DNA from: Phragmitibacter flavus
GTDB lineage: Bacteria; Verrucomicrobiota; Verrucomicrobiia; Verrucomicrobiales; Verrucomicrobiaceae
Assembly (NCBI RefSeq): GCF_005780165.1
Contig: NZ_VAUV01000024.1
Coordinates: 1-62,446 of the forward strand
Length of the DNA stretch: 62,446 bases
Direction: 5' to 3'
The notes under the pieces are model-generated. The model made no database searches, was not told the origin of the DNA, and saw nothing but the letters and a program-made list of their open reading frames with translations. The position numbers and the translations under genes are program-made. Positions 1 through 57,751 of the stretch are shown in pieces; position 1 is the stretch's first letter; every line of letters starts with the position of its first letter.

Positions 1-120
1 CGCGTGGGTGAGGCTGTTTGCCTGTTTTGTTGGAGAGCTCGGCCTTTGCCATGGGACAAGATGCGGCTGAGTGAAAATGGGGGCAAGGGCAATTTGTGAA
101 ATTTTTCACAAGCGGGAGAA
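1..120. other. Unassigned left edge
   Basis: No gene is recognised here. One plus-strand frame is open from the window edge to a TGA at 100-102, but the roughly 33 residues show no family signature, so it could be the tail of a cut gene or chance. The stretch leads into the heptamer array. Confidence 0.4.
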
Positions 121-330
121 GTGGGCAGTGGGCAGTGGGCAGTGGGCAGTGGGCAGTGGGCAGTGGGCAGTGGGCAGTGGGCAGTGGGCAGTGGGCAGTG
201 GGCAGTGGGCAGTGGGCAGTGGGTAGTGGGAAGTGGGAAGTGGGAAGTGGGAAGTGGGAGGTGGGAAGTAGGCAGTGGGCAGTGGGCAGTGGGCAGTGGG
301 CAGTGGGCAGTGGGCGGTGGGCGGTGGGCG
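121..330. repeat. Heptanucleotide tandem array, 30 copies (GTGGGCA type)
   Basis: Thirty 7-bp units follow one another without any indel: 14 GTGGGCA, one GTGGGTA, four GTGGGAA, GTGGGAG, GTGGGAA, GTAGGCA, five GTGGGCA and three GTGGGCG. The plus strand therefore has a GGG run every seven bases, which is the spacing expected for G-quadruplexes with 4-nt loops. The unit contains no stop in any frame, so three long overlapping reading frames arise by chance (reading VGSGQWA repeats). I treat it as non-coding repeat DNA about 60 bp upstream of the M50 protease gene. The form resembles the STRR heptamers described in cyanobacteria; that analogy is an inference. Confidence 0.97.
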
Positions 331-389
331 GTGCGATGTGACCTTTTTGATTTTTCTTTGCTCTTCGCGCTTCTGGGGCAAGGTGGGGA

Positions 390-28722: not shown

Positions 28723-30090
28723 TTAGGTGTAACGGGCGGTGCGGTGGTGGGGCAAGAAGAACTCGTGAAGGAGCCGGTCGACTTGCAGAAGTCCATCGCG
28801 GGTGAGTTCGATTTTGTCGTTGGCGGCATCGACCTTGCCGAAGCCTTCGCTCTCGATCCACTGAAGCTGGGGGGCAAAACGGGTCAGCACGTCTTCGCCG
28901 AATTTTGCCTGGTAGTAACTGGGGCGGACAGAGCCGAGCTTAAGTTTGAGGATGAATTCGCGGATGAAGCGTTCGTCGGGACTGGTCGCGTAGGCGCGGA
29001 AGATGGCGCTGTCGCCGCGTTCGATGGTGTCGATGTAGGGGGCGATCTCGGCCTGGTTTTGAAGGTGGATGCCACCAAGATGGCCGAAGGAGGCAACGCC
29101 AATGGGCAGGAGGTCGGCCCCTTCCCAGAGGGCGTCGCGATAGACGAACTTGATGCGTTCAGGGTCTTTGACGACGGTGTAGGCGCTGGTGACGGTGTAA
29201 CCGGCTTTTTCGAACTCGGTGAAGGCGTAGTTGACCCAGCCACGTTTGGTTTCCCAGTCGGCAACGGGTGCGGTTTCCTTGCCATCGGCCTTCATCTGTT
29301 TGTAGATGCCGGTGTTGTAGGGGACCTCCATCTGATAAATGGTGACGCAGTCAGGGGACATCTCGACGGCTTTGGCGACGGTGGCTTTCCACAATTCGTC
29401 GGTGTCATTCATCATGCCGGCGATGAGGTCGATGTTGACGTGTTCGAAGCCGAGCGAGCGGGCGATGCCGTAGGCGCGGTCGATCTCACCGGAGCGATGG
29501 GCGCGTCCGTTGGAGCCGAGGACGTGGTCGTCAAAATGCTCGACGCCAAGGCTGAGTCGGGTGACGCCGATGTCGCGGATGGCTTCGAGTTTGTTGGGGT
29601 TGAGGGTGCCGGGCTCGGCTTCGAAGGCGACTTCGGAGACTTCATCCCATGGCATGAGGTCTTTCATGCGGTCGGTGAGTTCGCGAAGCTGGGGGACGCT
29701 CAGATAGGACGGGGTGCCGCCGCCGAAATAAACGAAGTGAGGTTTGCGGCCTTTGAGATAGGGGCGGGCGGCGTAGCGGGCAAACTCCTCCATGCCGGCG
29801 TGAATGTAGCGGCGGATTTCGGAGGCATTTTTGTCGGTGTAGACGCGGAAGTAACAGAAGTGGCAGCGCTTGCGGCAGAAAGGAATGTGGAAGTAGAGGC
29901 CGAGGGGAACGTCTTCAGGAGGAGCGGTGTCGAGCAGTTTTTCGACGGCGAAGGCCTGTTCTTTCTGCCAGAAGGAGAACGGGGGGTAGTTGGCGACGAA
30001 GTAGTTGCCGACCTCAGTGGCGTGATGTTTCTCCTGGCCTTTTTTGGAGTCAGAAAGGTGGGTGATGGGGATATCAGCGGTGGAAGACAT
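28723..30090 (-). CDS. HemW/HemN-like radical SAM protein (coproporphyrinogen III oxidase family)
   Basis: A 455-residue radical SAM enzyme. The 4Fe-4S cluster motif is CRKRCHFC, with Cys72, Cys76 and Cys79. The SAM-binding YFGGGTPSYL is at 121-130, and EAEPGTLN plus VTRLSLGVEHFDD follow, as in HemN/HemW proteins. A HemN C-terminal domain occupies about 330-450. The N-terminal 60 residues are longer than in HemW, and the extra cysteine of HemN is absent at the usual place, so genuine coproporphyrinogen oxidase activity is doubtful. It is first in an operon with a chorismate-lyase-like protein. Its start codon (first base 30090) is preceded within 7 nt by a heptamer array instead of a Shine-Dalgarno site. 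Confidence 0.85.
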   Translation of the reverse strand: MSSTADIPITHLSDSKKGQEKHHATEVGNYFVANYPPFSFWQKEQAFAVEKLLDTAPPEDVPLGLYFHIPFCRKRCHFCYFRVYTDKNASEIRRYIHAGMEEFARYAARPYLKGRKPHFVYFGGGTPSYLSVPQLRELTDRMKDLMPWDEVSEVAFEAEPGTLNPNKLEAIRDIGVTRLSLGVEHFDDHVLGSNGRAHRSGEIDRAYGIARSLGFEHVNIDLIAGMMNDTDELWKATVAKAVEMSPDCVTIYQMEVPYNTGIYKQMKADGKETAPVADWETKRGWVNYAFTEFEKAGYTVTSAYTVVKDPERIKFVYRDALWEGADLLPIGVASFGHLGGIHLQNQAEIAPYIDTIERGDSAIFRAYATSPDERFIREFILKLKLGSVRPSYYQAKFGEDVLTRFAPQLQWIESEGFGKVDAANDKIELTRDGLLQVDRLLHEFFLPHHRTARYT

Positions 30091-30097
30091 GGATGAG

Positions 30098-30125
30098 AAA
30101 GGATAAAGGCGAAAGGATCAAGGAT
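30098..30125. repeat. Heptamer array (AAAGGAT type) abutting the radical SAM start codon
   Basis: Four in-phase units: AAAGGAT, AAAGGCG, AAAGGAT, CAAGGAT. The array is in the leader of the minus-strand radical SAM gene and ends 7 nt before its ATG; those 7 nt (GGATGAG on the plus strand) look like a decayed fifth unit. In the mRNA the array reads as repeated AUCCUUU. Confidence 0.85.
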
Positions 30126-30163
30126 AAACTTTCGGAGCGGGCAGTAGGGTGATCTGAAATGAT

Positions 30164-31354
30164 CTAAGGCGCAGGAGAGGGAACGTTCTTGAAGCAGTAA
30201 ACATTGCCGTCATCGGCTCCGACAAGGATAAAGTTTCCGGCGACGGCGGGGGCGACTTTGATATCGGCACCAATTTCATACCGCCATTTCTCTTCGCCAT
30301 TGGACAAATCAAGTGCGTAAAAGTAGCCGTCGCCGCTGCCGAACAGCACATGCTGGTTGGCACAGATGAGAGGGGAGCCGTCGATGTCGCCACGAGTGCG
30401 AAACTCCCAGACCTCCTTGCCGGTGGCGCGTTCGAGTTTGCGAATGCGTTTATCGCGTCCGGCGGCGACGACCCATTCGTCACTGACGGCCGCGGCTGCG
30501 TAGTAAGGGAAGTCGCGTTCGCCGTATTCCCAGAGTTTGGTGCCGTCGTTGAAGTCGAAGGCGGCGACCTTGTTGCCGTAGTGGGTGATGTAGGCGATGC
30601 CTTTGTCGACGGCGATGTTGTTGCCGATGTAGGCGCCGACTTCGATGGTTTTGACCTCTTTGCCGGTGGCGATGTCGATGACGTAAAGCATGCCGTCGCA
30701 ACCGCCGAAGACGACCTTATCTTCGTAGATGGCGGCGGCACCGTTGATGTAGTTGGTGGTTTCGTATTCCCAGAGTTTGGTGCCGGTGGCGGCGTCGAGG
30801 CAGTAGAGAAGATTGTCGTAGCTGCCGATGAGGACGTGTTCCTTACCTTCGGCGTTTTTCCAGGTATTGATGCCGGCGTGGATCTCGCCACGGGTTTCGA
30901 ATTTCCATTTTTCTTCGCCGGTGGTGGCGTCCCACGCATAAACGAAGCTGTCGACACACCCGGCGATGACGAGGTTGCCAGAGAAGCCGGCGTTGCCTTC
31001 AAAGGCAGATTCTTTTTCGACTTTCCAGACCTCTTTGCCGGTGGCGAGGTCGATGCAGTAAAAACGCCCGGACTGGCCGCCGATGTAGACCTTGCCGTCT
31101 TTTACGACGGGAGTGGCGAGAACGCCTTCTTTGCGGGCCTTGTCGCCGGTGGTGAAGGTCCAGACGAGTTCGAGAGGAAGATTGAGCTGGGTGGGGGAGA
31201 GTCCGGTCATGGCCTCATTGCCGCGGGCGTGGAGCCAGTTGAGGTTAGGGGCAGTGTCGGCCGCGGTGGCAGTAGCAGCAGCGGCAGGGTCCTGGGCTTG
31301 CAATTGCAGGAGTGATGAAGTGATGAGAAGAAGGGCGAGAAGAACGGTGGTCAT
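30164..31354 (-). CDS. PQQ-binding-like beta-propeller repeat protein (exported)
   Basis: A 396-residue exported protein with a signal peptide (about 1-21, ends LQAQ). Seven or so blades carry the PQQ-type tryptophan-docking motif in forms such as DLATGKEVWKVE, DATTGEEKWKFE, DAATGTKLWEYE and ERATGKEVWEFR. No dehydrogenase active-site residues or heme motif are visible, so it is more like the BamB-type or structural propellers than a quinoprotein enzyme. The start ATG (first base 31354) is chosen to begin the signal peptide. It lies upstream of the radical SAM operon on the same strand, 73 bp away, but the array between them argues for a separate translational unit. Confidence 0.9.
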   Translation of the reverse strand: MTTVLLALLLITSSLLQLQAQDPAAAATATAADTAPNLNWLHARGNEAMTGLSPTQLNLPLELVWTFTTGDKARKEGVLATPVVKDGKVYIGGQSGRFYCIDLATGKEVWKVEKESAFEGNAGFSGNLVIAGCVDSFVYAWDATTGEEKWKFETRGEIHAGINTWKNAEGKEHVLIGSYDNLLYCLDAATGTKLWEYETTNYINGAAAIYEDKVVFGGCDGMLYVIDIATGKEVKTIEVGAYIGNNIAVDKGIAYITHYGNKVAAFDFNDGTKLWEYGERDFPYYAAAAVSDEWVVAAGRDKRIRKLERATGKEVWEFRTRGDIDGSPLICANQHVLFGSGDGYFYALDLSNGEEKWRYEIGADIKVAPAVAGNFILVGADDGNVYCFKNVPSPAP

Positions 31355-31587
31355 GGGCGAGCAGGAATGGGTTGGGCGCGAGCCTGGCAGCATTTAGGAT
31401 ACGTCTGGCGACCGGGGATTGTTCAGGCTTTGGGGGAAGTGGATGGCGTTGCGTGGTTGATAGGCTGAGTAATGGGCCACGTTCTGCAAGGCGAGCAAGG
31501 GCAGGACATGTCCGACTCTCGTTGCCGGACCATGGGGGAAATTCGTTGCGTTGATGATGATGGTGGGCGTATGGGTTTTTACGCGTT

Positions 31588-32370
31588 ATGGAGATGGACA
31601 TTGATTTTGATCTAAGGACGATTGCGATTTCGATCGGAATTGACGGTGTTGATGAGGTGGTGCGCAGGGAGGAGCCTGTGGTGATTGGCAAGGCGAACAT
31701 GAAGATGCTGGGGTCGATGGGGCATGTGCTGGTGCGGTTTTGGGAGGCGCAGCGGGTGTTGATGAAGAAAGGGGGGAAGGAGGTAGAGGGATTGGAGGTT
31801 TGGTTGGAAGGGGCACCAGAATTTCGCAACGTGCCGGATGGATTTGGGGTGCTGCTGAGGATGACGCCGTCCGGATTGAAACTGGATGGGGTGCTTGGTG
31901 AAGGCGGGGATGGGGCGAATGGATCGATCTGGCCAGCTTTGTTAAGGCTACCGGGTCTGCGGGGGTTTTGGGAACAGCAACTGAGAGGGAGTGTGTTGGA
32001 GACTTTGTTGTCGGTGACGCCACAAGCCTGGTTGGTCGATCCGACGCCGTTGCCGCCTGGATCGGTGACTGCTGGATTGGATGTGGGAAGCTGGGCGGAC
32101 TTCGGCGGGCAGACGGACGAATTTTCGCTGTCTTCGCGTTGGGAAGCGCCGGGGGATTTTCGCGCGGCGGGAGATCTAGAGTTGACCAAGGCGCTGGCGG
32201 CTTTTCCTGAGGAGCGAACAGTTTTGACGCGGGCACTTGTGAACGCTGAACCTGGTTTCGTGGTGGCGACTTATCGAGTGGATGAAAAGGGAACTTCTTT
32301 GGTTGAGGCGGTGCAATTGAGCCGCGATGAAGCGGGGAAATGGATGGCGGCTCCGGTAACTGGGAAGTGA
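31588..32370 (+). CDS. Unknown protein upstream of Smr
   Basis: A 260-residue soluble protein with no signal peptide, membrane helix or family that I recognise. It is rich in Gly, Leu, Trp and acidic residues; visible landmarks are MTPSGLKLDGVLG and SWADFGGQTDEFSLSS. It ends 3 bp before the Smr gene, so the two are co-transcribed. The ATG at 31588 is used; nothing upstream in frame is better. The 233 bp before it, up to the PQQ gene start, form a divergent promoter region with no further gene. Confidence 0.7.
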   Translation: MEMDIDFDLRTIAISIGIDGVDEVVRREEPVVIGKANMKMLGSMGHVLVRFWEAQRVLMKKGGKEVEGLEVWLEGAPEFRNVPDGFGVLLRMTPSGLKLDGVLGEGGDGANGSIWPALLRLPGLRGFWEQQLRGSVLETLLSVTPQAWLVDPTPLPPGSVTAGLDVGSWADFGGQTDEFSLSSRWEAPGDFRAAGDLELTKALAAFPEERTVLTRALVNAEPGFVVATYRVDEKGTSLVEAVQLSRDEAGKWMAAPVTGK

Positions 32371-32373
32371 ACG

Positions 32374-32670
32374 ATGGCGGATGATGCTACAGAAAACGAG
32401 AATGAGCCGGTCGAGTGGCCGATCACGAACGAACTGGACCTGCATGCGTTCAGGCCGTCAGAGGTGAGCAGCTTGTTGCCGGAGTATTTTTTGGAGTGTC
32501 GGAAGCGAGGAATTTTTGAGGTGCGCGTGGTGCATGGCAAGGGCACGGGAGCCTTACGGGTGGGGGTGCATCGGTTGCTGGAAACGATGGAGGAAGTGGC
32601 GGACTGGCATTGGCCGGCCGGACAGGGAAGCGGAGGTTGGGGGGCGACTTGGGTGAGGTTGAGGAGGTGA
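32374..32670 (+). CDS. Smr domain protein
   Basis: A 98-residue protein that is essentially one Smr (small MutS-related) domain. It shows ITNELDLHAFRPSEV at about 17-31 and the VVHGKGTGALR loop at about 52-62, the two signatures of Smr nucleases that nick DNA or cleave RNA. The family includes ribosome-rescue RNases, but a stand-alone short copy cannot be assigned to either role. It follows the unknown 260-residue gene by 3 bp. Confidence 0.9.
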   Translation: MADDATENENEPVEWPITNELDLHAFRPSEVSSLLPEYFLECRKRGIFEVRVVHGKGTGALRVGVHRLLETMEEVADWHWPAGQGSGGWGATWVRLRR

Positions 32671-32675
32671 GGAAA

Positions 32676-33323
32676 CTAGTCGGACAGCGGAGGAGCTTGC
32701 AGGTTGGGCAGAAGGACTGGGTCAGGAACGAGAACGGGACTGGTCGGAAGAAGGGGTTCGACGGCGATGTCGGTATCGGTGTCGAGGGGGGATGACAACG
32801 GTGTTGAGTCGCCCAAAGGTTTTTCGAGCGGGGTGGGAACGAGTTGGAAGGTGCTCGATGGGGCCATCGTGCCGCGGTTGAGATCTTGCCATTCCTGGCG
32901 TTCGAGGATGACGATTTGTTCGATGCCGTCCGGTTTTTTGATGGTGAGCTCAACCAGGGTGCCGGGCCAGCCGCTGCTGGCTGCGACGACTTGTTTGTCG
33001 GTGTAGCCGAGCGTGGATTCCTGATCGATGGCGATCAACTGATCGCCGTTGGTCAGGCCAGCCAGTTGTGCAGGTGAGCCGGAGAGGGTGCCGACAATTT
33101 CAGGAAAACGACCCGGGTGGCCGACGATGCCGATGCCGATGCCTCCGGTGAGTTGCTGGCGGGTTTTATGAATTTGTTTTTGCAGGGTTTCCGATAGGGG
33201 ACTGGTGTTTTTGGAGAGTAGGGTGGAACTGGTGACGAGGGTTTTGGGCAGGAATTTCCAGATGGCTGCAAGGGAAATCACGGCAAGGAGCGTGACGGTG
33301 ATGAAGAGCAGCGGGCGATTCAT
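32676..33323 (-). CDS. PDZ-domain membrane-anchored protein
   Basis: A 215-residue protein. A hydrophobic N-terminal helix (about 4-23) anchors or exports it. A PDZ domain lies at about 60-140, with GIGIVGHPGRFPEIVGTLSG, a binding groove, and GLTNGDQLIAIDQ. The last 70 residues are Pro/Asp-rich and probably disordered. There is no protease domain, so it may present substrates or bind C-termini in the periplasm. The ATG with first base 33323 is preferred over an upstream start that would add 16 polar residues. It is the last gene of the long minus-strand run. Confidence 0.82.
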   Translation of the reverse strand: MNRPLLFITVTLLAVISLAAIWKFLPKTLVTSSTLLSKNTSPLSETLQKQIHKTRQQLTGGIGIGIVGHPGRFPEIVGTLSGSPAQLAGLTNGDQLIAIDQESTLGYTDKQVVAASSGWPGTLVELTIKKPDGIEQIVILERQEWQDLNRGTMAPSSTFQLVPTPLEKPLGDSTPLSSPLDTDTDIAVEPLLPTSPVLVPDPVLLPNLQAPPLSD

Positions 33324-33371
33324 CGAACGGTTGGGACTCGAGCCTTTCTGTGTCGGCTGCCACGTTTTCAA

Positions 33372-33851
33372 TCAACGACTGAGGTCGTTTTGGCAGAGGA
33401 CTTGGTAGCCGGTTTTGCGGAGGGCTTCTTCGCCGACTTCGCCGTCTTCGACGCAGAGGGCGAGGAGGGGCTTGTCCTGATGGCGGACGAGCAGGGGATA
33501 GCTGTGGTGGATGTTGATTTCGGCGGCGAGGAGGGAGGCGAGGGCCTGGCAGAGGTCGGGGGCGCCTTCTTCAAGGGCGACGACCACCACGGTCTTTATC
33601 GCACAGGAGTGGCCTTGTTCGTCGAACAGGTCTTTGGCAGATTCCGGATCGCTAACGATGAGACGGACGAGGGTGAGGTCGATGGAGTCTTGCAGGCTGA
33701 AGCCGAGGACTTCGATGTGGTGGTCGTTGAGGAGTTTGACGAGGGTGAGGAAGGCACCAACGCGGTTGTGGAGAAAGACGGAAAGTTGCCGAACGGGGGA
33801 GCGGGCGTTGGTGGTGCTGAGGGAGGAGACAAAAGAGGTTTTCGAGGACAT
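33372..33851 (-). CDS. ACT-domain protein
   Basis: A 159-residue soluble protein with two ACT-like repeats. The first is VRQLSVFLHNRVGAFLTLVK then HHIEVLGFSLQDSIDLTLVR; the second is at about 85-155 with LLAAEINIHHSYPLLVRHQ. ACT domains bind amino acids or similar ligands and regulate enzymes; no catalytic domain is attached, so it may be a free regulator. The ATG with first base 33851 is used because upstream the frame runs through a simple repeat (SYSYSY). The array in that leader ends only 2 nt before the ATG. Confidence 0.82.
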   Translation of the reverse strand: MSSKTSFVSSLSTTNARSPVRQLSVFLHNRVGAFLTLVKLLNDHHIEVLGFSLQDSIDLTLVRLIVSDPESAKDLFDEQGHSCAIKTVVVVALEEGAPDLCQALASLLAAEINIHHSYPLLVRHQDKPLLALCVEDGEVGEEALRKTGYQVLCQNDLSR

Positions 33852-33853
33852 AT

Positions 33854-33915
33854 CGAAAGGAGAAAGGCGGAAGGATGAAGGCGAGTAGGAGTAGGAGTAG
33901 GAGTAGGAGTAGGAG
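33854..33915. repeat. Heptamer array fused to a GAGTAG hexamer array
   Basis: Four heptamers (CGAAAGG, AGAAAGG, CGGAAGG, ATGAAGG) occupy 33854-33881 and change directly into five copies of the hexamer GAGTAG at 33883-33912, plus a partial sixth. The composite lies between the DUF6941 and ACT genes on the minus strand and reaches to 2 nt before the ACT start codon. Confidence 0.88.
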
Positions 33916-33921
33916 GAAGAG

Positions 33922-34347
33922 CTACCCGGCAGGCTGGTTGGAGCCGCGCATTTCTTCGTAGCGGGTGACGCGGAGGGGAAGGGTGGCGAGTTCGTCGCCG
34001 TTGATGTGGATGACGAAGTGATAAACGCCGGCTTTTTCGAAGTGCAGTCGCTGGAGGTTGAGGACCAGATTGCGACTGACGAAAGGGATGGCACCGGGGG
34101 GGAAGTTGACGTCCATCATGGGGGTGAAGGCGGGCATGATGGAGAGACCTGCTTCGTTTTTAAGCTCGATGCGGAGCTGGTGCTGGCCGACATCGTGGGG
34201 GGAAAAGAGCAGTCGCAGGGCGAGGGAACACTGCGGGTGGGCGACGGGAAATTCGCGGGCGCAGAGGGTGTCAAAGGTGCCGAGGATGCAGAGTTTGCCC
34301 TGGTAGTCGGCGGCGGAATCGCAAAGGGTGATCAGTTGCAACTGCAT
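33922..34347 (-). CDS. DUF6941-like protein
   Basis: A 141-residue soluble protein, likely a beta-sandwich. The opening QLITLCDSAADYQGKLCILG and the following GTFDTLCAREFP resemble the DUF6941 family, which has no known function. The gene begins 41 bp after the PBP2 stop and belongs to the same minus-strand run. Nothing in it suggests export. The C-terminal residues end 6 bp before the hexamer/heptamer array. Confidence 0.72.
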   Translation of the reverse strand: MQLQLITLCDSAADYQGKLCILGTFDTLCAREFPVAHPQCSLALRLLFSPHDVGQHQLRIELKNEAGLSIMPAFTPMMDVNFPPGAIPFVSRNLVLNLQRLHFEKAGVYHFVIHINGDELATLPLRVTRYEEMRGSNQPAG

Positions 34348-34388
34348 GCGATGCGATTTGGTGGTTGAGTGGTGAAGCGGTCAGCAAG

Positions 34389-36488
34389 TTAGCGGCCAAA
34401 AAGCTTGCGAAAAAATCCACCGATGCCGCGTTTCTCACCTTCGTCGACAGGCTCGGCTTCATTGATGGGAGTGACGGCTTCGCCATCGTTGCCCATGCCG
34501 CCGCTGCCTTCAATTTCTTCGTCTTCTTCGGAAACGGGGATCGCCTTGGCGGCTTCTTCGGCTTGGGAGAGGAGGATGAGTGGGTCGTCAGGCGGGGCGT
34601 TGTCGTAGACTTTGGTGAACACTTCTTTGACGATGGGGGCGGCTTTGCCACCGCCGGAAACGGATTCATAAGGCTGGCCTTCGTAGACGATGGCGTAGGC
34701 GTAGATGGGGTCGTTGGCGGGGAGGAAGCCGGTGAACCACGCAAGGTTGCGTTCTTCGTTGGGTTTCCACTGGGCGGTGCCGGTTTTGCCTGCAACCTGG
34801 CAATTGTATTTTTTGTCGAGCGCGGCGGCTCGACCGGTGCCGCCGGGGGAGTTGCAGACGGCGACCATGCCTTTGATGACGGCTTCGCGGGCGGCGGGTT
34901 GGAGGTTGACCTGACGGGCGACCTGCGGTGGGAAGGCTTGCAGGACGCGGTCGTTGGGGTCCTGAACTTGCGAAACAAGGCGGGCACGTGGCATGTTGAC
35001 ACCATCGGCGACGGCGGCCATGGATTGGGCGGTTTGCAATGGGGTGACGAGGGTGCGGCCCTGGCCGATGGAGAGGTTGGCGATATCGCCGCCCTGCATG
35101 CGGTGGCCGAGGCGTTCGATCATCCAGGTGTTGGTGGGAACGAAGCCGGCGGTTTCGCCACCAACGGGGATGCCGGTGCGTTCGCCAAAGCCAAAGCGCT
35201 GGGCCATGTCGGTGATGGGATCGGCACCCACGGCGAGTCCGGCCTGATAAAACCAGGTGTTGCAGGAGCGTTTGATGGCGCTCACGACGTTCATGTAGCC
35301 TTCGGGATTTTTGGTGTGGTTGTGGAAGACGCGGTCGCCGATTCGAAGGGCGGTGCTGCAGTCGTAGGCGCTTTTGGCGGTGATTTTGCCGGTCTCGAGT
35401 GCGGCAAGGGAGACGATGATTTTGAAGGTGGAGGCGGGAGGGTATTCGCCCTGGAAAGCGCGGGCGTAGAGGGGGGTGCGTTTGTCTTCGTTGAGGGCGC
35501 GGAAGTTTTCGCTGGTGATGCCGGGGACCCACATGTTGGGATCGTAGAGAGGATAGGAGGCCATGGCGAGGACGTCGCCGGTGCGCACGTCCATGACGAC
35601 CATGGCGCCGCCTTTGGTGTGTTTGGCGAGGGCGGTCTCGGCATAGGACTGCATGTGGTAGTCGAGCGTGGTGACCACGTTGTTGCCGGGTTTGGGACGG
35701 CGAACGGTTTGTTCGTCGATTTTGCCGCCGTCGGCATCGAAGAGGACGCTGACCATGCCGGGCGTGCCCTGGAGGTCGCGATCAAAGCTTTGTTCGAGGC
35801 CGCTTTTGCCTTCGGTTTCTTCAAAGATGGGGTCGCCATCCTGGGCGGGGGTGACGGGGAGCGGGCGGCTTTTGCCGACGTAGCCGAGCATGTGGGGGGC
35901 GCTGGCGCCTTTGGGGTAGAAGCGCAGGTAGGCGGCTTGAAGGAGGAGGCCGCTGCCTGGTTGGGTAAGAGGTTTGAGGAGGGCCTGTTGCTCTTCGCTG
36001 ATTTCTTCGTTGATGCCGTCGTTGAGGGAGAAGACGAGGGGGAGCCAGCGACGGTTTTTGTAGTGATTGAGGAGTTTATCGCCGGTGATGTTCCAGTTTT
36101 TTCCTAGCAGGCGGTTGGCTTTGAGAATGCGTTCGTGGGCGAAGGAGACGATTTCGGTGTCGGTGGCGTCTTTTCCAAGGAAGGGGTAGCTGAGGGCGAG
36201 ATATTGGGCGACGCGAGTTTGGGCAAGAGGAATGCCATTGCGGTCGACGATCTGACCACGTGGCGCGGGGATGATGAGGCTGAGGGCGCGGGCCTGGGTT
36301 TGGGTTTTCCAGCCGGCAGAAAGTTCCCGTTTGGCGGTCGGAACGTCGAGGCTGGTGTCGGAGTCTGAATCGTCGGCGGGAAGGGCTCGGAGGGCGGCGG
36401 ACTGTTGCGCTGAGACTGGAATCCCTCCAGACGCCAAAATCAGGGCGAGTGAGGAAAGGAGAGACCAGAAGCGCACGGAAAAAGGCAT
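34389..36488 (-). CDS. mrdA: Penicillin-binding protein 2 (class B transpeptidase)
   Basis: A 699-residue peptidoglycan DD-transpeptidase. The PBP dimerisation domain spans about 60-260 (IIPAPRGQIVDRNG near 72). In the transpeptidase domain STFK is at 353-356, SCN at 408-410 and KTG at 568-570, so the active site is complete. After residue about 625 there is an acidic, disordered tail (EEDEEIEG) ending in GGFFRKLFGR. The N-terminus looks more like a cleavable signal (ends VSAQQ) than the usual uncleaved anchor, which would be odd for PBP2. No rodA is adjacent. In rod-shape systems PBP2 works with RodA and MreB. Confidence 0.93.
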   Translation of the reverse strand: MPFSVRFWSLLSSLALILASGGIPVSAQQSAALRALPADDSDSDTSLDVPTAKRELSAGWKTQTQARALSLIIPAPRGQIVDRNGIPLAQTRVAQYLALSYPFLGKDATDTEIVSFAHERILKANRLLGKNWNITGDKLLNHYKNRRWLPLVFSLNDGINEEISEEQQALLKPLTQPGSGLLLQAAYLRFYPKGASAPHMLGYVGKSRPLPVTPAQDGDPIFEETEGKSGLEQSFDRDLQGTPGMVSVLFDADGGKIDEQTVRRPKPGNNVVTTLDYHMQSYAETALAKHTKGGAMVVMDVRTGDVLAMASYPLYDPNMWVPGITSENFRALNEDKRTPLYARAFQGEYPPASTFKIIVSLAALETGKITAKSAYDCSTALRIGDRVFHNHTKNPEGYMNVVSAIKRSCNTWFYQAGLAVGADPITDMAQRFGFGERTGIPVGGETAGFVPTNTWMIERLGHRMQGGDIANLSIGQGRTLVTPLQTAQSMAAVADGVNMPRARLVSQVQDPNDRVLQAFPPQVARQVNLQPAAREAVIKGMVAVCNSPGGTGRAAALDKKYNCQVAGKTGTAQWKPNEERNLAWFTGFLPANDPIYAYAIVYEGQPYESVSGGGKAAPIVKEVFTKVYDNAPPDDPLILLSQAEEAAKAIPVSEEDEEIEGSGGMGNDGEAVTPINEAEPVDEGEKRGIGGFFRKLFGR

Positions 36489-36559
36489 GACGGTAGTTAG
36501 GGGAAGGTGCCAGTGTGGCTTGAAAGGGGGGTTCCGTCAATGAGGTTCACGCGGAAGGG

Positions 36560-37450
36560 CTAGCGGCTGGCGAGGGGGGTGCTTTGCCGGGAATGGAGGG
36601 TTTTGGCGATGTCCCTGCCGGTGGCACGTCCGACTTCGAAGAGGGATTCGCGCTGTTTGTGGGGGAAGAGTTTGGGGTGGGCAGTTTCGCTGCGGGCGAT
36701 GATGAGGTTCTTGCCGTGCATGCGGGCGAGGCGCAGGCGGAGATCGGTGGTTTCCTTGGAGATGGTTTCGTGGCAGGCGGCGAAGCCGGAGGAAAGGGTG
36801 GGCCACTGCATGACGAGTTCGGTGCCGGGGGTGTGGTCGATGTTGTGAATGACGATGGTGTGGATGGAGGGGTCGTCGATCCAGTGGTCGAAGGGAACAT
36901 GGAGGGCGACACCGCCGTCGCACCAGCGTTCGCCGTTGATGACGCGATTGCAGAAGAGGCCGGGGATCGAGCAGCTGGCGATGACCCATTCGGCGGCGTC
37001 GCCTTCGGTGATGAGGCGGCTTTCGCGTTTGGTCAGGTTGGTGACGGCGATCTGGATGCGTGGAGACTGGAAGTTTTCGAGGCGGGCGCTTTGCAATTGT
37101 TCGCGGAGGTATTTGACGGCGTTGTTGCCAGAGAGGATGCCGGAGCTGTAGAGGCTGCTGGCGACGCCGGGAAAGCGCAGCGGTGCGGCCCAATCAATGA
37201 AGGACCGGCGCAAACCGGGGCGGAGGGTGAAGTTTTCGATTTCGCGACCTTGCAGGCCCATGCCACAGATGGCGGCGGTGAAGGCTCCGGAAGAGGTGCC
37301 GGCAATCTGGTCGGGAAAGATGCCGGCTTCATGAAGCGCGCCCATGAAGGCGGAATGGGCGTAAAATCCATAGAAGGAGGAACTGAGGGCAACGGCGATG
37401 CCGGTGCCTGGGTGGGATGATCGGGCGCTCATGTCCGGGTTGGATGTCAT
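36560..37450 (-). CDS. Patatin-like phospholipase with atypical oxyanion loop
   Basis: A 296-residue protein of the patatin family. The nucleophile elbow is GTSSGAF with Ser53, and the catalytic Asp is in ERWCDGGVALH (Asp178), so the Ser-Asp dyad is intact. The glycine-rich oxyanion loop normally written GGGxRG is replaced by SSSFYGFYAHS at 23-33, which may change or abolish lipase activity. There is no signal peptide. Its ATG directly follows the TAA of the flippase gene, so translation is coupled. A lipid substrate in the envelope is plausible from neighbours (flippase, PBP2). Confidence 0.82.
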   Translation of the reverse strand: MTSNPDMSARSSHPGTGIAVALSSSFYGFYAHSAFMGALHEAGIFPDQIAGTSSGAFTAAICGMGLQGREIENFTLRPGLRRSFIDWAAPLRFPGVASSLYSSGILSGNNAVKYLREQLQSARLENFQSPRIQIAVTNLTKRESRLITEGDAAEWVIASCSIPGLFCNRVINGERWCDGGVALHVPFDHWIDDPSIHTIVIHNIDHTPGTELVMQWPTLSSGFAACHETISKETTDLRLRLARMHGKNLIIARSETAHPKLFPHKQRESLFEVGRATGRDIAKTLHSRQSTPLASR

Positions 37451-38452
37451 TTAGGTCTGCTGGGTGACGCTGGTGGATGCAGATTGTGTTCCAGAACGGA
37501 TTCGATGCAGGCCAAGCCAGATGCCTCCGACGAGTCCCCAGATGCCGGTGACGGCGAATCCGAGCAGGGAGACGGTGACGGCCCCCTGGGCTCCCATGGG
37601 TAGGGTGTGTCCGAGCAGTTCGACAAAAAGGTTTTCGCGCACGCCAAGTCCGCTGATGGTGATGGGAATGGCGGCGATGGCGTCCACCATGGGCATGATG
37701 GCGAGCATTTGCAGCGGGGGGATGGGTTGGGCAACGGCGTGGCTGGAACACCAGTAGGCGGCATAGCCGGAGAGAATGCTGAGGATGGAAACGATCTGGG
37801 CGCGGTAGATGGCGTTGCGGTGGGGCTGAAGATGAAGGAACGGTCGGAGCGGAAAGGTGATGCGACGGAGGAAGGGTTTGCTGTTGATGTGGTTCCAGAT
37901 CGAAGGGAAGCAGATCGCGGTAAAGGCGCTGAGGGTGAGGAGGCCCATGATGCCCAGGATGATGTCGGTGGCGACGAGGGCGATGCCGGGGACCATGCTG
38001 TTGTTGGAGGTGAGCCAGGCCGTTTGAGGTCGGGTAAACAAGATGTAAAGAATGGTGCCGGCCATCAGTCCAACGCCGTGATCGAGCAGGATGGATTGGG
38101 CGATGCGCAGTTTTTGATTGGGGAACTGGCGGTTGAGGAACACGGCACGGATGCCGTCGGCACCGAGAGGACCGAGGAAGTAGAAGTTAAAAAAATCGGC
38201 AAACATCGTCAGCCGGATCGACTCACGGAAGCTGAGAGCCATGCCGTTCATCTGCACGAAGGCGCGCCAGCGCATGGCCCATCCTAAAACGGCGAGGCCG
38301 CCAAAAAGCATGGCGAGCAACAGCCAGCCGAAGTGAATGGTGGTGTTTTGGAGACTGGGCAGGCTGGCGAACTCAGCACGTCGCAGAGCCCACCAGAGCA
38401 GGGCACCGCCACAAGCGAGGCGCAAGAGAAGCATCCAGTGGCGGCGGGGCAT
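37451..38452 (-). CDS. Flippase-like membrane protein (LPG_synthase_TM/AglD superfamily)
   Basis: A 333-residue polytopic protein with about eight hydrophobic segments. Family features are FNFYFLGPLGADGIRAVFL at about 88-106, and SGLGVRENLFVELLG near 275-290 with the conserved Gly-Arg-Glu. The superfamily includes the membrane half of lysyl-phosphatidylglycerol synthase and undecaprenyl-linked lipid flippases; no aminoacyl domain is attached, so a lipid-flipping role is inferred. Its start (first base 38452) lies 4 nt after an AAAGGAT heptamer array, and its stop abuts the patatin start. Confidence 0.85.
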   Translation of the reverse strand: MPRRHWMLLLRLACGGALLWWALRRAEFASLPSLQNTTIHFGWLLLAMLFGGLAVLGWAMRWRAFVQMNGMALSFRESIRLTMFADFFNFYFLGPLGADGIRAVFLNRQFPNQKLRIAQSILLDHGVGLMAGTILYILFTRPQTAWLTSNNSMVPGIALVATDIILGIMGLLTLSAFTAICFPSIWNHINSKPFLRRITFPLRPFLHLQPHRNAIYRAQIVSILSILSGYAAYWCSSHAVAQPIPPLQMLAIMPMVDAIAAIPITISGLGVRENLFVELLGHTLPMGAQGAVTVSLLGFAVTGIWGLVGGIWLGLHRIRSGTQSASTSVTQQT

Positions 38453-38456
38453 GCTA

Positions 38457-38484
38457 AAAGGCTAAAGGATGAAGACTAAAGGAT
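38457..38484. repeat. Heptamer array (AAAGGAT type) abutting the flippase start codon
   Basis: Four in-phase units: AAAGGCT, AAAGGAT, GAAGACT, AAAGGAT, followed by AAACTT as in the array at 30098-30125. It fills most of the 62-bp gap between rimO and the flippase gene and ends 4 nt before the flippase ATG. Confidence 0.85.
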
Positions 38485-38514
38485 AAACTTGGCCAGGTCA
38501 GTTGGCGAAGGCGA

Positions 38515-53762: not shown

Positions 53763-53847
53763 TGGTGCTCACGAGAGGACTCGAACCTCCACGATGTTAC
53801 TCACTAGAACCTGAATCTAGCGCGTCTACCAATTCCGCCACGTGAGC
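53763..53847 (-). tRNA. tRNA-Leu (anticodon CAG)
   Basis: The minus strand folds as a class II tRNA of 85 nt: the acceptor GCTCACG pairs with CGTGAGC, the anticodon stem CTAGA/TCTAG encloses the loop TTCAGGT, giving the anticodon CAG. There is a long variable arm (GAGTAACATC) and a T-arm with GGTTCGAGTCC. The CCA end is encoded. Confidence 0.97.
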
Positions 53848-54122
53848 ATGATTCCTGCAGCAGGATAGATAACTTGCGCAGGATCGTAAGGTTCTCAACT
53901 GGAATTTTTGGGGAATTGGGGGCGGAGGCGGAAGTTGGAAGTGGGAAGTGGGAAGTCGGAAGTCGGAATGCGGAAGTCGGAATGCGGAAGTCGGAGACGT
54001 GAGGTCGACTGGATGTTATGGGTGAGCTGCGGTTTGGTGGGGCCGGCTTGAACCCGGTCTGGGCATGGGCCTGCCCGTCGAACAGGAGGTGCCTACTGCC
54101 TTACTTGCCACTTGGCCGCGTT
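53848..54122. other. Gap between tRNA-Leu and the royal-jelly-family gene
   Basis: Apart from the heptamer array (53924-54007) nothing is seen. A weak frame at 54016-54291 lies mostly inside the next gene and has no coding look. Confidence 0.5.
53924..54007. repeat. Heptamer array (GAAGTGG/GAAGTCG type)
   Basis: Nine clean in-phase units occupy 53931-53993: GAAGTTG, two GAAGTGG, two GAAGTCG, GAATGCG, GAAGTCG, GAATGCG, GAAGTCG; weaker units flank them. GAAGTGG is the same 7-mer, rotated, as the GTGGGAA block in the 121-330 array, linking the two loci. Confidence 0.92.
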
Positions 54123-55291: not shown

Positions 55292-55378
55292 AAAAGTTAA
55301 AAGTTGAAAGTCAAAAGTGAAAAGTGGCATGCGGTGCCGGGCACTTGCTGTATGGATAGGTCGGTGATTTTAACTTTT
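55292..55378. repeat. Heptamer array (AAAAGTT type) with an inverted copy
   Basis: Five in-phase units lie at 55292-55326 (AAAAGTT twice, GAAAGTC, AAAAGTG twice). The first eleven bases, AAAAGTTAAAA at 55292-55302, recur inverted as TTTTAACTTTT at 55368-55378. The pair lies in the divergent promoter region between the royal-jelly-family gene and the globin gene. Confidence 0.85.
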
Positions 55379-55772: not shown

Positions 55773-57712
55773 TGGAGACGATGAATTTGCGCGGGGCATT
55801 AAAGGAACATTTTGGGCATGAAGGTTTCCGCCCGGGGCAGGAGCGTGTGGTCGAGGCATTGCTGGCGGGGAAGTCGGCGCTGGCAGTGTTTCCGACGGGT
55901 GGAGGCAAGTCGATTTGTTATCAGTTGCCGGCGTTGTTGATGGAAGGATTGACGCTGGTGATCTCGCCGTTGATTGCGTTGATGAAGGATCAGGTGGAGG
56001 CGTTGAAGGCGCGCGGCATTGCGGCGGCAAGGTTGGATTCCACGTTGTCGGCAGCGGAGGTGCAGGGGGTGTTTGCGGACATGCGCGCGGGACGGTTGAA
56101 GCTGCTGTATATCGCGCCGGAACGATTGATGAATGAATCGTTCATGGAACGGCTCGGGCAGACAAAGATTGCTCTGCTGGCGATTGATGAGGCGCATTGC
56201 ATTTCGGAATGGGGTCACAATTTCCGACCGGAGTATCTGCGGCTGGCAGCAGTGGCGCGTCGCTTGAAGCTGCATCCGGTGCTGGCGTTGACGGCGACCG
56301 CGACTCCGGCGGTGGCGACGGACATTCGCAAGGCGTTTGACATAAAGGAGGTCGATCATGTGCAGACTCCGTTTCGGCGGGCGAATCTGGCGTTGCTGGT
56401 GACGCCGAGTGCGGTGGACAAACGATTGGAGGTTTTGACGCGCAGGCTGAAGCAGTCGGGCAAAGGGCGTTTGTTTCCTGCGGTGGTGTATGTGACGCTG
56501 CAACAGACGGCGGAACAGGTGGCCACGCATCTGGCCAAACAGGGGGTGAATGCGAGGGCCTATCATGCAGGGTTGCCGGATGAGGTGCGCGCGGAGGTGC
56601 AGGAGGCCTTCATGCGCGGAACGGTGGACGTGATGGTGGCGACGATAGCGTTTGGGATGGGGATCGACAAGGCGGATGTGCGGGCGGTGTTTCACTACAA
56701 TCTGCCAAAAACGCTGGAGAATTATCAGCAGGAAACGGGTCGCGCGGGCCGGGACGGATTGCCTGCGCATTGCGAGATGCTGGCGTGTCTGGACGACTTG
56801 GGGGTGCTGCGCAATTTTGTGTATGGGGACACGCCGACAGCGCTTGCGTTGAAGCAGTTGGTGGATCATTTGCTGCGGAAGGGGTCGGAGTTTGACATCA
56901 GCCGGTATGACCTAGCGCACACGGTCGACATCCGGCCGTTGGTGCTGGAAACGGTGCTGACTTATCTGGAACTGGAGGGCGTGTTGCAACCGTTGGGGGC
57001 GTTTTACAATGGGTATCAGGTGCATTTTACGCACGGCGAGGAGCGGGTGTTGTCGGGACACAAGCCGGAGCGGCAGCAGTTTTTGAAGCGGCTTTTTGAC
57101 AGTGGCAAGCGGGGTTATCGCTGGCTCACTTTGGACATGACGGTGGCCATGGAGGCGACGGGGGACGGTCGCGAGCGCATCATGAAAGCGCTGCTGTGGA
57201 TGGAGGAGGCGGGGGACATCACTTTAAAACCGAGCGGGTTGAGGCATCGCTATCGCTTGTGTGAAAACGCGGGACAGCGTGATCCAGCAGTGATTTGCAA
57301 ACGCATGCAGGCATTGTTTGCGGCGCGGGAGGTGGCGGACGCCAAGCGGCTTGAAGAAGTGGTGGGGTTGGCGAGTGATCCAGGATGTTTAACGCGGCAT
57401 CTGCTGCGGCATTTCGGGGAGGTGATGGAGGAAGATTGTGGAACTTGCAGCAGCTGCGTGGAAGGGCTGACCGTTCCGAGGCAATTGCCGAAATCGCCTG
57501 AGCCGCTGATCACCACGGAACACGTGCAGCAGATTCAGGCGGTGATGGCCGAGGGGCATGCGGCGTTAAGAGCTCCGCGGCAACTGGCGCGATTTTTGTG
57601 TGGCTTGAGCAGTCCGGCGACCACCCGGGCGAGGTTGTCCCGGCATGATGCGTTCGGTTTGCTGGAAGGGTATCCGTTTCAGGTGGTGCTGGAGCAGACG
57701 GAAAGCCAGTAA
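55772..57712 (+). CDS. recQ: ATP-dependent DNA helicase RecQ
   Basis: A 646-residue superfamily 2 helicase. Motif I is PTGGGKSICYQ near 38, motif II is IDEAHCISEWGHNFR near 134, and motif VI is QETGRAGRDG near 320. The RQC zinc-binding and winged-helix region follows at about 350-520 (cysteines in CEMLAC, though the set is incomplete), and a C-terminal domain has CGTCSSC near 558. The start is the ATG at 55772, overlapping the globin stop; reading upstream would fall inside the globin gene in another frame. It ends before a heptamer array and terminator. Confidence 0.95.
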   Translation: METMNLRGALKEHFGHEGFRPGQERVVEALLAGKSALAVFPTGGGKSICYQLPALLMEGLTLVISPLIALMKDQVEALKARGIAAARLDSTLSAAEVQGVFADMRAGRLKLLYIAPERLMNESFMERLGQTKIALLAIDEAHCISEWGHNFRPEYLRLAAVARRLKLHPVLALTATATPAVATDIRKAFDIKEVDHVQTPFRRANLALLVTPSAVDKRLEVLTRRLKQSGKGRLFPAVVYVTLQQTAEQVATHLAKQGVNARAYHAGLPDEVRAEVQEAFMRGTVDVMVATIAFGMGIDKADVRAVFHYNLPKTLENYQQETGRAGRDGLPAHCEMLACLDDLGVLRNFVYGDTPTALALKQLVDHLLRKGSEFDISRYDLAHTVDIRPLVLETVLTYLELEGVLQPLGAFYNGYQVHFTHGEERVLSGHKPERQQFLKRLFDSGKRGYRWLTLDMTVAMEATGDGRERIMKALLWMEEAGDITLKPSGLRHRYRLCENAGQRDPAVICKRMQALFAAREVADAKRLEEVVGLASDPGCLTRHLLRHFGEVMEEDCGTCSSCVEGLTVPRQLPKSPEPLITTEHVQQIQAVMAEGHAALRAPRQLARFLCGLSSPATTRARLSRHDAFGLLEGYPFQVVLEQTESQ

Positions 57713-57714
57713 GA

Positions 57715-57735
57715 AAGGATGAAGGATGAAGGATA
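57715..57735. repeat. Short heptamer array (AAGGATG type)
   Basis: Three in-phase units, AAGGATG, AAGGATG, AAGGATA, lie between the recQ stop and its terminator. They belong to the same unit family as the arrays at 30098, 33854 and 38457. Confidence 0.8.
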
Positions 57736-57751
57736 GAGCATCGGGCATAAA

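Follow-up and report, generated by a model that had tools for sequence, protein, structure and literature searches.

Polar heptanucleotide arrays at gene starts and gene stops of Phragmitibacter flavus as probable members of a dispersed repeat family

Introduction

The stretch of Phragmitibacter flavus DNA analysed here (62,446 nucleotides, called the window below) is contig C24 (NZ_VAUV01000024.1) of a draft assembly of 44 contigs that total 5.91 Mb, and it carries short tandem arrays of a heptanucleotide directly in front of three start codons. The question raised by this locus is whether such arrays act on the translation of the genes that they precede, as was proposed in a preliminary description which explained them as a possible device for tuning translation through leader length, or whether they belong to something of wider occurrence. 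The repeat, with the unit AAAGGAT / TTTATCC and the degenerate coding-strand consensus YTTAKCC, is named here the A family. The arrays of this family were found at stop codons as well as at start codons with one and the same polarity. Our preferred reading, to which we lean without strong conviction, is that they belong to a heptanucleotide repeat family that is dispersed, specific to the lineage and located at gene borders, and that they are not primarily a device for tuning translation.

Results

Three arrays of the A family precede start codons in the window

The three arrays in front of the ATGs at 30090, 33851 and 38452 were found to be real, with all three ATGs as described and all three genes matching Pfam families. 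The genes concerned and the A-family arrays of the window are as follows.

28723-30090, minus strand: radical SAM gene (Pfam Radical_SAM), ATG at 30090, array at the start border
30098-30128, minus strand: array before the radical SAM gene, TTTATCC-TTGATCC-TTTCGCC-TTTATCC followed by TTT, ending 7 nt before the ATG; the pattern TTTAKCCTTTC-N0-7-ATG matches at C24:30088-30107
33372-33851, minus strand: ACT gene (Pfam ACT_8), ATG at 33851, array at the start border
33856-33879, minus strand: array before the ACT gene, TTCATCC-TTCCGCC-TTTCTCC followed by TTT and then CGAT-ATG, ending 4 nt before the ATG
37451-38452, minus strand: flippase-like gene (Pfam LPG_synthase_TM), ATG at 38452, array at the start border
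38457-38487, minus strand: array before the flippase-like gene, TTTATCC-TTTAGTC-TTCATCC-TTTAGCC followed by TTT, ending 4 nt before the ATG
57715-57748, minus strand: fourth A-family array, at a stop border in a convergent gap, 2 nt past the stop of the plus-strand gene 55781-57712

The adjacency of the three arrays to their start codons stood; the spacing, given before as 2-7 nt, is 4-7 nt and the units are degenerate. The leader sequences also bore out that the arrays occupy the leaders and are not Shine-Dalgarno (SD)-like on the coding strand. Taken singly, the window arrays are weak, with Tandem Repeats Finder (TRF) scores of 33-47, and the heptads before the ACT gene were not reported by TRF. 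A scan of the window with Rfam returned only two tRNAs at the gathering threshold, and nothing of a known RNA family where the arrays lie. The radical SAM protein has its closest named relatives (75-85% identity) in Verrucomicrobium sp. BvORR strains and in metagenome-assembled genomes labelled Verrucomicrobia, Verrucomicrobiaceae or Phragmitibacter, in line with a place in Verrucomicrobiaceae.

The G-rich strand of the arrays points away from genes at starts and stops alike

The placement of arrays relative to genes was analysed on 1.65 Mb, comprising contigs C1-C4 and the window, and the tandem repeat scan was made on the same sequence. The first, loose expression for the family had given 39 arrays and 18 on the reversed sequence, as it admitted loose two-unit matches; the stricter expression required T or G at unit position 5, and arrays added for the border test had at least three units. 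In all 30 strict A-family arrays with genes on both sides, no more than 10 nt separated the 5′ end of the G-rich strand from a gene edge, whereas the opposite end lay that close in 10/30, and 13.0 would be expected for either end if arrays were placed uniformly in their gaps. The borders concerned were 19 starts and 11 stops, and when the three arrays before the radical SAM, ACT and flippase-like genes were set aside the remainder still obeyed (27/27; 16 starts and 11 stops). In convergent (stop-stop) gaps, where neither border is a start codon, the arrays sat at the edge of the same polarity in 5/5 cases, and the single strict array in a divergent gap fits as well (1/1). The rule is that the G-rich strand of the array points away from the gene, at starts and stops alike.

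Two CTTCCGC-type arrays (C2 141874 and 253885) were admitted by the expression and then removed, which reduced the set from 32 to 30 and the divergent-gap arrays from three to one; with them included, 31/32 arrays lay within 10 nt and 13.1 were expected. The border test left out one array without G/C excess and six that fell within called genes, were not flanked by usable genes on both sides or lay far from any gene, and two of these six are of the A family (C2 267941 and C2 387424). As 310 starts and 321 stops were available as borders, the preference for starts was not significant (p = 0.11 for the 32-array set and 0.26 without the three arrays of the window leaders). Arrays nearer to the G-strand 5′ edge by more than 10 nt numbered 23 vs 2 in the A family and 17 vs 6 in other heptamer families, which follow the rule more loosely (19/30 vs 10/30 at the other end, 10.4 expected). 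Among the 27 border genes outside the window, 20 were scanned and 20/20 matched Pfam, so those genes are real; no functional theme of flanking genes was apparent in these 20. Two consecutive genes, at C2 86519 (GTP_EFTU/GTP-eEF1A_C) and C2 87473 (PAPS_reduct), belong to a probable sulfate-assimilation operon, and each has an array before its start.

The family is dispersed over the genome and has the anatomy of a short element

Pattern counts were made over the whole genome with the same pattern read backwards as control. The pattern YTTANCCYTTANCC had 260 matches vs 5 backwards, TTTAKCCTTTC had 123 vs 13, and TTTAKCCTTTC-N0-7-ATG had 63 vs 0. Enrichment of array ends near start codons throughout the genome, a point raised by the preliminary description, was therefore found: 63 of the 123 have an ATG within 7 nt, against a baseline of 13% of random 10-nt intergenic windows containing ATG, although the 63 include at least one match (C3:383370) that the gene calls place at a stop border. 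The looser TTYAKCCTTYAKCC discriminates less in P. flavus (186 vs 68 backwards). When the search covered 57 genomes, that is this one and 56 relatives of which none is of the same genus, TTTATCCTTTATCC had 30 matches in this genome, 0 backwards and 1 match in one of the 56 others.

Period 7 dominates the intergenic tandem repeats. The scan found 56 lag-7 arrays, of which 52 are intergenic, and three local shuffles left 0, 0 and 1; the intergenic arrays of other periods numbered 2 for period 5, 16 for period 6 (34 in total) and 0-6 each for periods 8-13 (1-8 in total each). Several unit families occur in the one genome, including AAAGGAT, AGTGGGC, CGGAAGT, TTGAGAG, TTGGTTC and TTTATGA. STRR is the name used for heptanucleotide repeats of Calothrix, and the features that go with it were seen here, namely a unit of exactly 7 nt dispersed over many unrelated, mostly intergenic loci.

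The architecture was analysed in 34 family members obtained with the strict-unit expression, the two CTTCCGC-type arrays included. Exactly four strict units were present in 18/34, and the units were followed by TTT in 33/34 and by TTTC in 27/34. The flanks also recurred, with TCAG on the far side in 8/34 (1.3 expected) and GATA on the gene side in 7/34 (0.3-0.45 expected). Unit quality was flat across four units and at background level by the seventh, and growth in one direction, with quality falling off gradually at increasing distance from the gene, was rejected on that account. The preferred size and the flat unit quality together make the A family more like a short element with a favoured size than an open-ended slippage tract, whereas some arrays of other heptamer families are far longer.

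Array strand follows an extreme GC skew

The GC skew is extreme in C2 (+0.277; 10-kb blocks up to 0.44) and in the window (+0.274), whereas in C1, C3 and C4 it is weaker and patchy, and the low-skew patches hold few or no arrays. The G-rich strand is, as a rule, the leading strand. Codon usage depends on the strand: in regions with skew of at least 0.2, the third-codon-position skew was -0.68 in lagging-type genes and +0.54 in leading-type genes. The G-rich strand of the arrays matched the local skew in 50/55, and in C1 the array strand flips together with the skew. Array density rose with skew: the 47 bins below 0.05 held no array at all, and the 81 bins of 0.30 or above held 29. When the first 100 of the 123 TTTAKCCTTTC places were grouped by eye into 91 clusters, 80/91 were on the majority strand of their contig, and the best of 100,000 shuffles reached 74.

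Shine-Dalgarno-like sites are rare with and without arrays

With our own gene calls, SD-like tetramers were present in 1/34 starts with an array (0/26 lagging-type, 1/5 leading-type and 0/3 low-skew) and, among starts without an array, in 13/290 lagging-type, 50/316 leading-type and 36/405 low-skew ones. The arrays sit in leaders that would mostly be SD-free anyway. The arrays as a replacement of SD sites were thus rejected, as such sites are rare with or without them, and start-specific tuning as a general role was rejected by the arrays at stop borders (11/30) and in convergent gaps (5/5).

Relatives carry the family and its start anatomy, in G004 at one of four genes compared

TTYAKCCTTYAKCC had 13-48 matches each in the relatives G004, G005, G008, G014, G016, G021 and G028, and none of the remaining 49 exceeded 7. 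The pattern TTCAKCCTTTC-N0-7-ATG was found 13 times in G004, 17 times (one array counted twice) in G008 and 9 times in G016, with 0 backwards. Sampled loci of G004 are weakly skewed (-0.07 to +0.04), as are the loci L163 (+0.03) and L171 (-0.03) of relatives, and the sampled stretches of five relatives had skew mostly of 0 to 0.08 per 20 kb, with one block at 0.12. Since weak-skew relatives carry the family together with its start anatomy, strong skew is not needed for it.

Four start-array genes were checked in G004, and one (the flippase) has heptads at the start of its orthologue, ending 3 nt before the ATG; the orthologues of the radical SAM, ACT and cysH-like genes had no array on their contigs among the matches listed. 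No tandem array was seen by eye in the radical SAM leaders of 29 relatives, several near ones of which are C/T-rich. The PQQ and radical SAM genes are separated by 73 nt in P. flavus and by 22-92 nt in the measurable relatives (five loci excluded), which is compatible with insertion or overwriting. Large-scale synteny with relatives was too little for a comparison of spacers. Among the matches listed for G004, G008 and G016, 11 inverted pairs less than 300 nt apart were recognised by eye, all with the G-rich strand plus in the left copy and minus in the right and 0 of the opposite layout; this is what the border rule would predict if each pair flanks one gap. In the relative G005 (L243), an 8-nt repeat, TACTGATT, lies upstream of the ACT orthologue and ends a few nt before its start, where P. 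flavus has heptads.

Other repeats of the window and the genome

Further repeat arrays of the window are as follows.

33883-33915, minus strand: perfect hexamer array of 5.5 copies adjoining the ACT heptads upstream, CTACTC on the minus strand and GAGTAG on the plus strand
120-333, minus strand: heptamer family AGTGGGC (as read on the plus strand), ~30 copies, the longest heptamer array in the window
53930-53995, minus strand: heptamer family CGGAAGT (as read on the plus strand), ~9 copies, about 80 nt from a tRNA-Leu gene (region 53763-53995)
55292-55326, minus strand: heptamer family AAAAGTT, ~5 copies, in a divergent gap

The 70-nt spacer before the ACT gene is made up mostly of repeats, the heptads and the hexamer array. 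The AGTGGGC arrays (window 120-333), with their GGG runs, could by their letters qualify as G-quadruplex formers, whereas four runs of at least three G do not occur in AAAGGAT arrays, which have GG tracts and GGG only at CTTATCC-type units. G-quadruplexes as a common basis of the heptamer families were rejected, as units such as AACTCTC do not fit. At C2 386873-387036, more than 100 nt are very G-rich, which is possibly a low-complexity stretch or an assembly artefact.

Discussion

The arrays before the three start codons of the window are best seen together with their counterparts elsewhere in the genome. The proposed element consists most often of four YTTAKCC units and then TTTC, and is placed at either kind of border with its G-rich strand running off from the coding sequence. 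Array positions differ between genera, as seen for the few genes compared, and array strand is correlated with the extreme GC skew of this genome. The copies may have spread by replication-linked copying or by slippage on single-stranded DNA, and would have been kept only where genes were undamaged. At starts they may be tolerated, since SD-like sites are rare in this genome anyway, and perhaps occasionally used. Thirteen Y1_Tnp (IS200/RAYT-type) matches were found in the genome; REP/RAYT elements combine a palindromic unit of 20-40 nt with a Y1 transposase. The arrays have the look of direct repeats (no search for palindromes was aimed at them), and the transposase matches are only a lead for the mode of spread.

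Several observations weigh against the reading of the arrays as a dispersed repeat family that spreads by copying. Neither a machinery for copying nor an intermediate of it was found. Tandem gaps that contain an array do not exceed the others in length (medians 93 vs 78; p = 0.56 vs gaps of at least 0), and the gap minus the array is shorter (median 40; p = 2e-5 vs gaps of at least 0 and 0.004 vs all gaps), a comparison that the detection limit for arrays biases; the gap lengths point to replacement of spacers, which they fit better than plain insertion. The heptads at the flippase orthologue of G004 hint at retention, and the four-unit size, the common TTTC end and the shared flanks could be signs of a functional binding site and not of a neutral repeat. 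The link to the strand is incomplete, with five arrays contrary to local skew (5/55) and minority-strand arrays in C6, C8, C9 and C10. At seven loci that are more distant (Opitutae- or Verrucomicrobiales-type) the skew reaches 0.18-0.24, and they had a single heptamer array among them, so that arrays do not follow from skew alone. The non-A families in tandem gaps with a start at the G-5′ edge showed no polarity (3 nearer the 5′ edge, 5 nearer the other), starts outnumber stops by 19 to 11 in the A family, if not significantly, and the genes were called with a home-made finder using a simple hexamer model, the start calls of which are approximate.

A role in translation, in which the C/U-rich repeats recruit or tune ribosomes at SD-less starts, for example through S1, with the unit number setting the output, is close to the reading given by MacGregor for TAACTGA repeats. 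It could draw on the frequent ATGs just after array ends (63/123), on the near absence of SD-like tetramers at array starts (1/34) and on a start anatomy shared with three further genomes from two genera. We regard it as unlikely all the same, because over a third of the strict arrays (11/30) lie at stops, those of convergent gaps share the polarity without a start codon, the preference for starts over the available borders is not significant, SD sites are rare in array-free genes too, and three of the four genes checked had no array at the G004 orthologue among the matches listed. The explanation of the arrays by leader-length tuning of translation was consequently not supported as a general one, although individual genes may still be tuned in this way. 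A signal at transcription boundaries would account for starts and stops by one polarity, the C-rich strand being the one read by transcripts that enter the gene, sense at the start and antisense at the stop, and the arrays serving as sites of Rho loading or pausing that insulate the borders. The units are C-rich and G-poor on the inward strand, and the loading idea builds on a preference of Rho, but in convergent gaps the arrays are at the far border and not directly behind the gene whose transcript would be stopped, and we hold this explanation to be quite unlikely.

The arrays could also be a by-product of composition, with the strong GC skew and the C/T-rich leaders seeding slippage of which heptads are merely the commonest product. 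That array density tracks skew, that leaders of the lagging type are rich in C even when they have no array (C 0.46 at -1 to -5) and that several near radical SAM orthologues have C/T-rich leaders without a tandem array would all agree with it. The prevalence of period 7 over other periods, the recurrence of the same unit, the preferred four-unit length and the TTTC end at unrelated loci, the presence of the family in weak-skew relatives and the stop borders on the array side being no more skewed than those on the other side speak against it, and it appears improbable to us. A replication-polar DNA site, comparable to the guidance motifs of the KOPS type, would match the strand homogeneity within contigs and the agreement with skew; neither the border rule nor the close inverted pairs of G004, G008 and G016 would be expected of it, and the units are lineage-specific and in arrays, which makes it the most improbable of the explanations considered.

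The dispersed repeat family that we favour carries a caution, as a repeat directly in front of a start codon is not necessarily a signal for translation when the same repeat also sits just after stop codons. It also raises the question where the border rule originates, in selection or in the way the copies are made, and the several unit families, the strict border polarity of the main one and the strong strand asymmetry, which is absent from the sampled relatives within the taxonomic family, make the cause testable. A wider claim, that heptamer arrays mark the borders of genes in bacteria generally and with one polarity, so that at either end the C-rich strand of whatever unit is the one read inward, is a speculation that we doubt. 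If it were true, a common rule in Verrucomicrobiaceae, Xanthomonas, Nostoc and perhaps Beggiatoaceae would mean one shared border process, for which insulation against incoming transcription or replication-linked copying that halts at coding sequence would be candidates.

Comparison with known heptamer repeats

No account of such heptamer repeats was found among the papers listed in searches of the open-licence literature on Verrucomicrobia; the comparisons with other bacteria below are with extracts of the cited papers. The repeats GGGAATC of Xanthomonas and GGGGA(T/C)T of Nostoc were described as closer to the 5′ neighbouring open reading frame (ORF) whatever its orientation, on the non-coding strand within 0-50 bp when upstream of an ORF and on the coding strand when downstream (Rehm et al, 2015; PMC4692102). 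Those of Xanthomonas have mostly four units, with many in convergent pairs and no leading or lagging preference (PMC4692102). The P. flavus arrays show the same polarity, with the 5′ end of the G-rich strand nearer the gene, and share with both the intergenic, G-rich heptamers with the ORF on the 5′ side, and with Xanthomonas the four units and the paired convergent arrays. They differ from both in their units, the offset within 10 nt, the TTTC end and the mostly GG tracts of the main family, and from Xanthomonas in following the skew.

The TAACTGA heptamers of Beggiatoaceae are mostly intergenic, most of them end a few nt before starts, few SD sites are present, and translational regulation was proposed for them (MacGregor, 2015; PMC4679880). 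The intergenic position, the ends a few nt before starts and the few SD sites are common to both, whereas the extracts describe one unit that is mostly start-directed, and several unit families per genome are found here, with the A family not mainly directed at start codons (19 starts and 11 stops). Dispersed short tandem heptanucleotide repeats are also known from Calothrix, as cited in PMC4692102; these, compared by citation only, are likewise dispersed but differ in their units. Geobacter metallireducens has elements of four tandem heptanucleotides, GGGACCG, at 49 sites (PMC2700814), which resemble the present ones in being four dispersed tandem heptads and differ in occurring inside genes as well and in their unit. 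The over-representation of heptamers in bacteria had been noted earlier and polymerase slippage hypothesised, as cited in PMC4692102. We read the A family as a variant of the dispersed heptanucleotide repeats already known elsewhere, new in its units and in its link to the strand; it is called a variant of the Xanthomonas and Nostoc type because its strand follows the skew, whereas in Xanthomonas no leading or lagging preference was seen.

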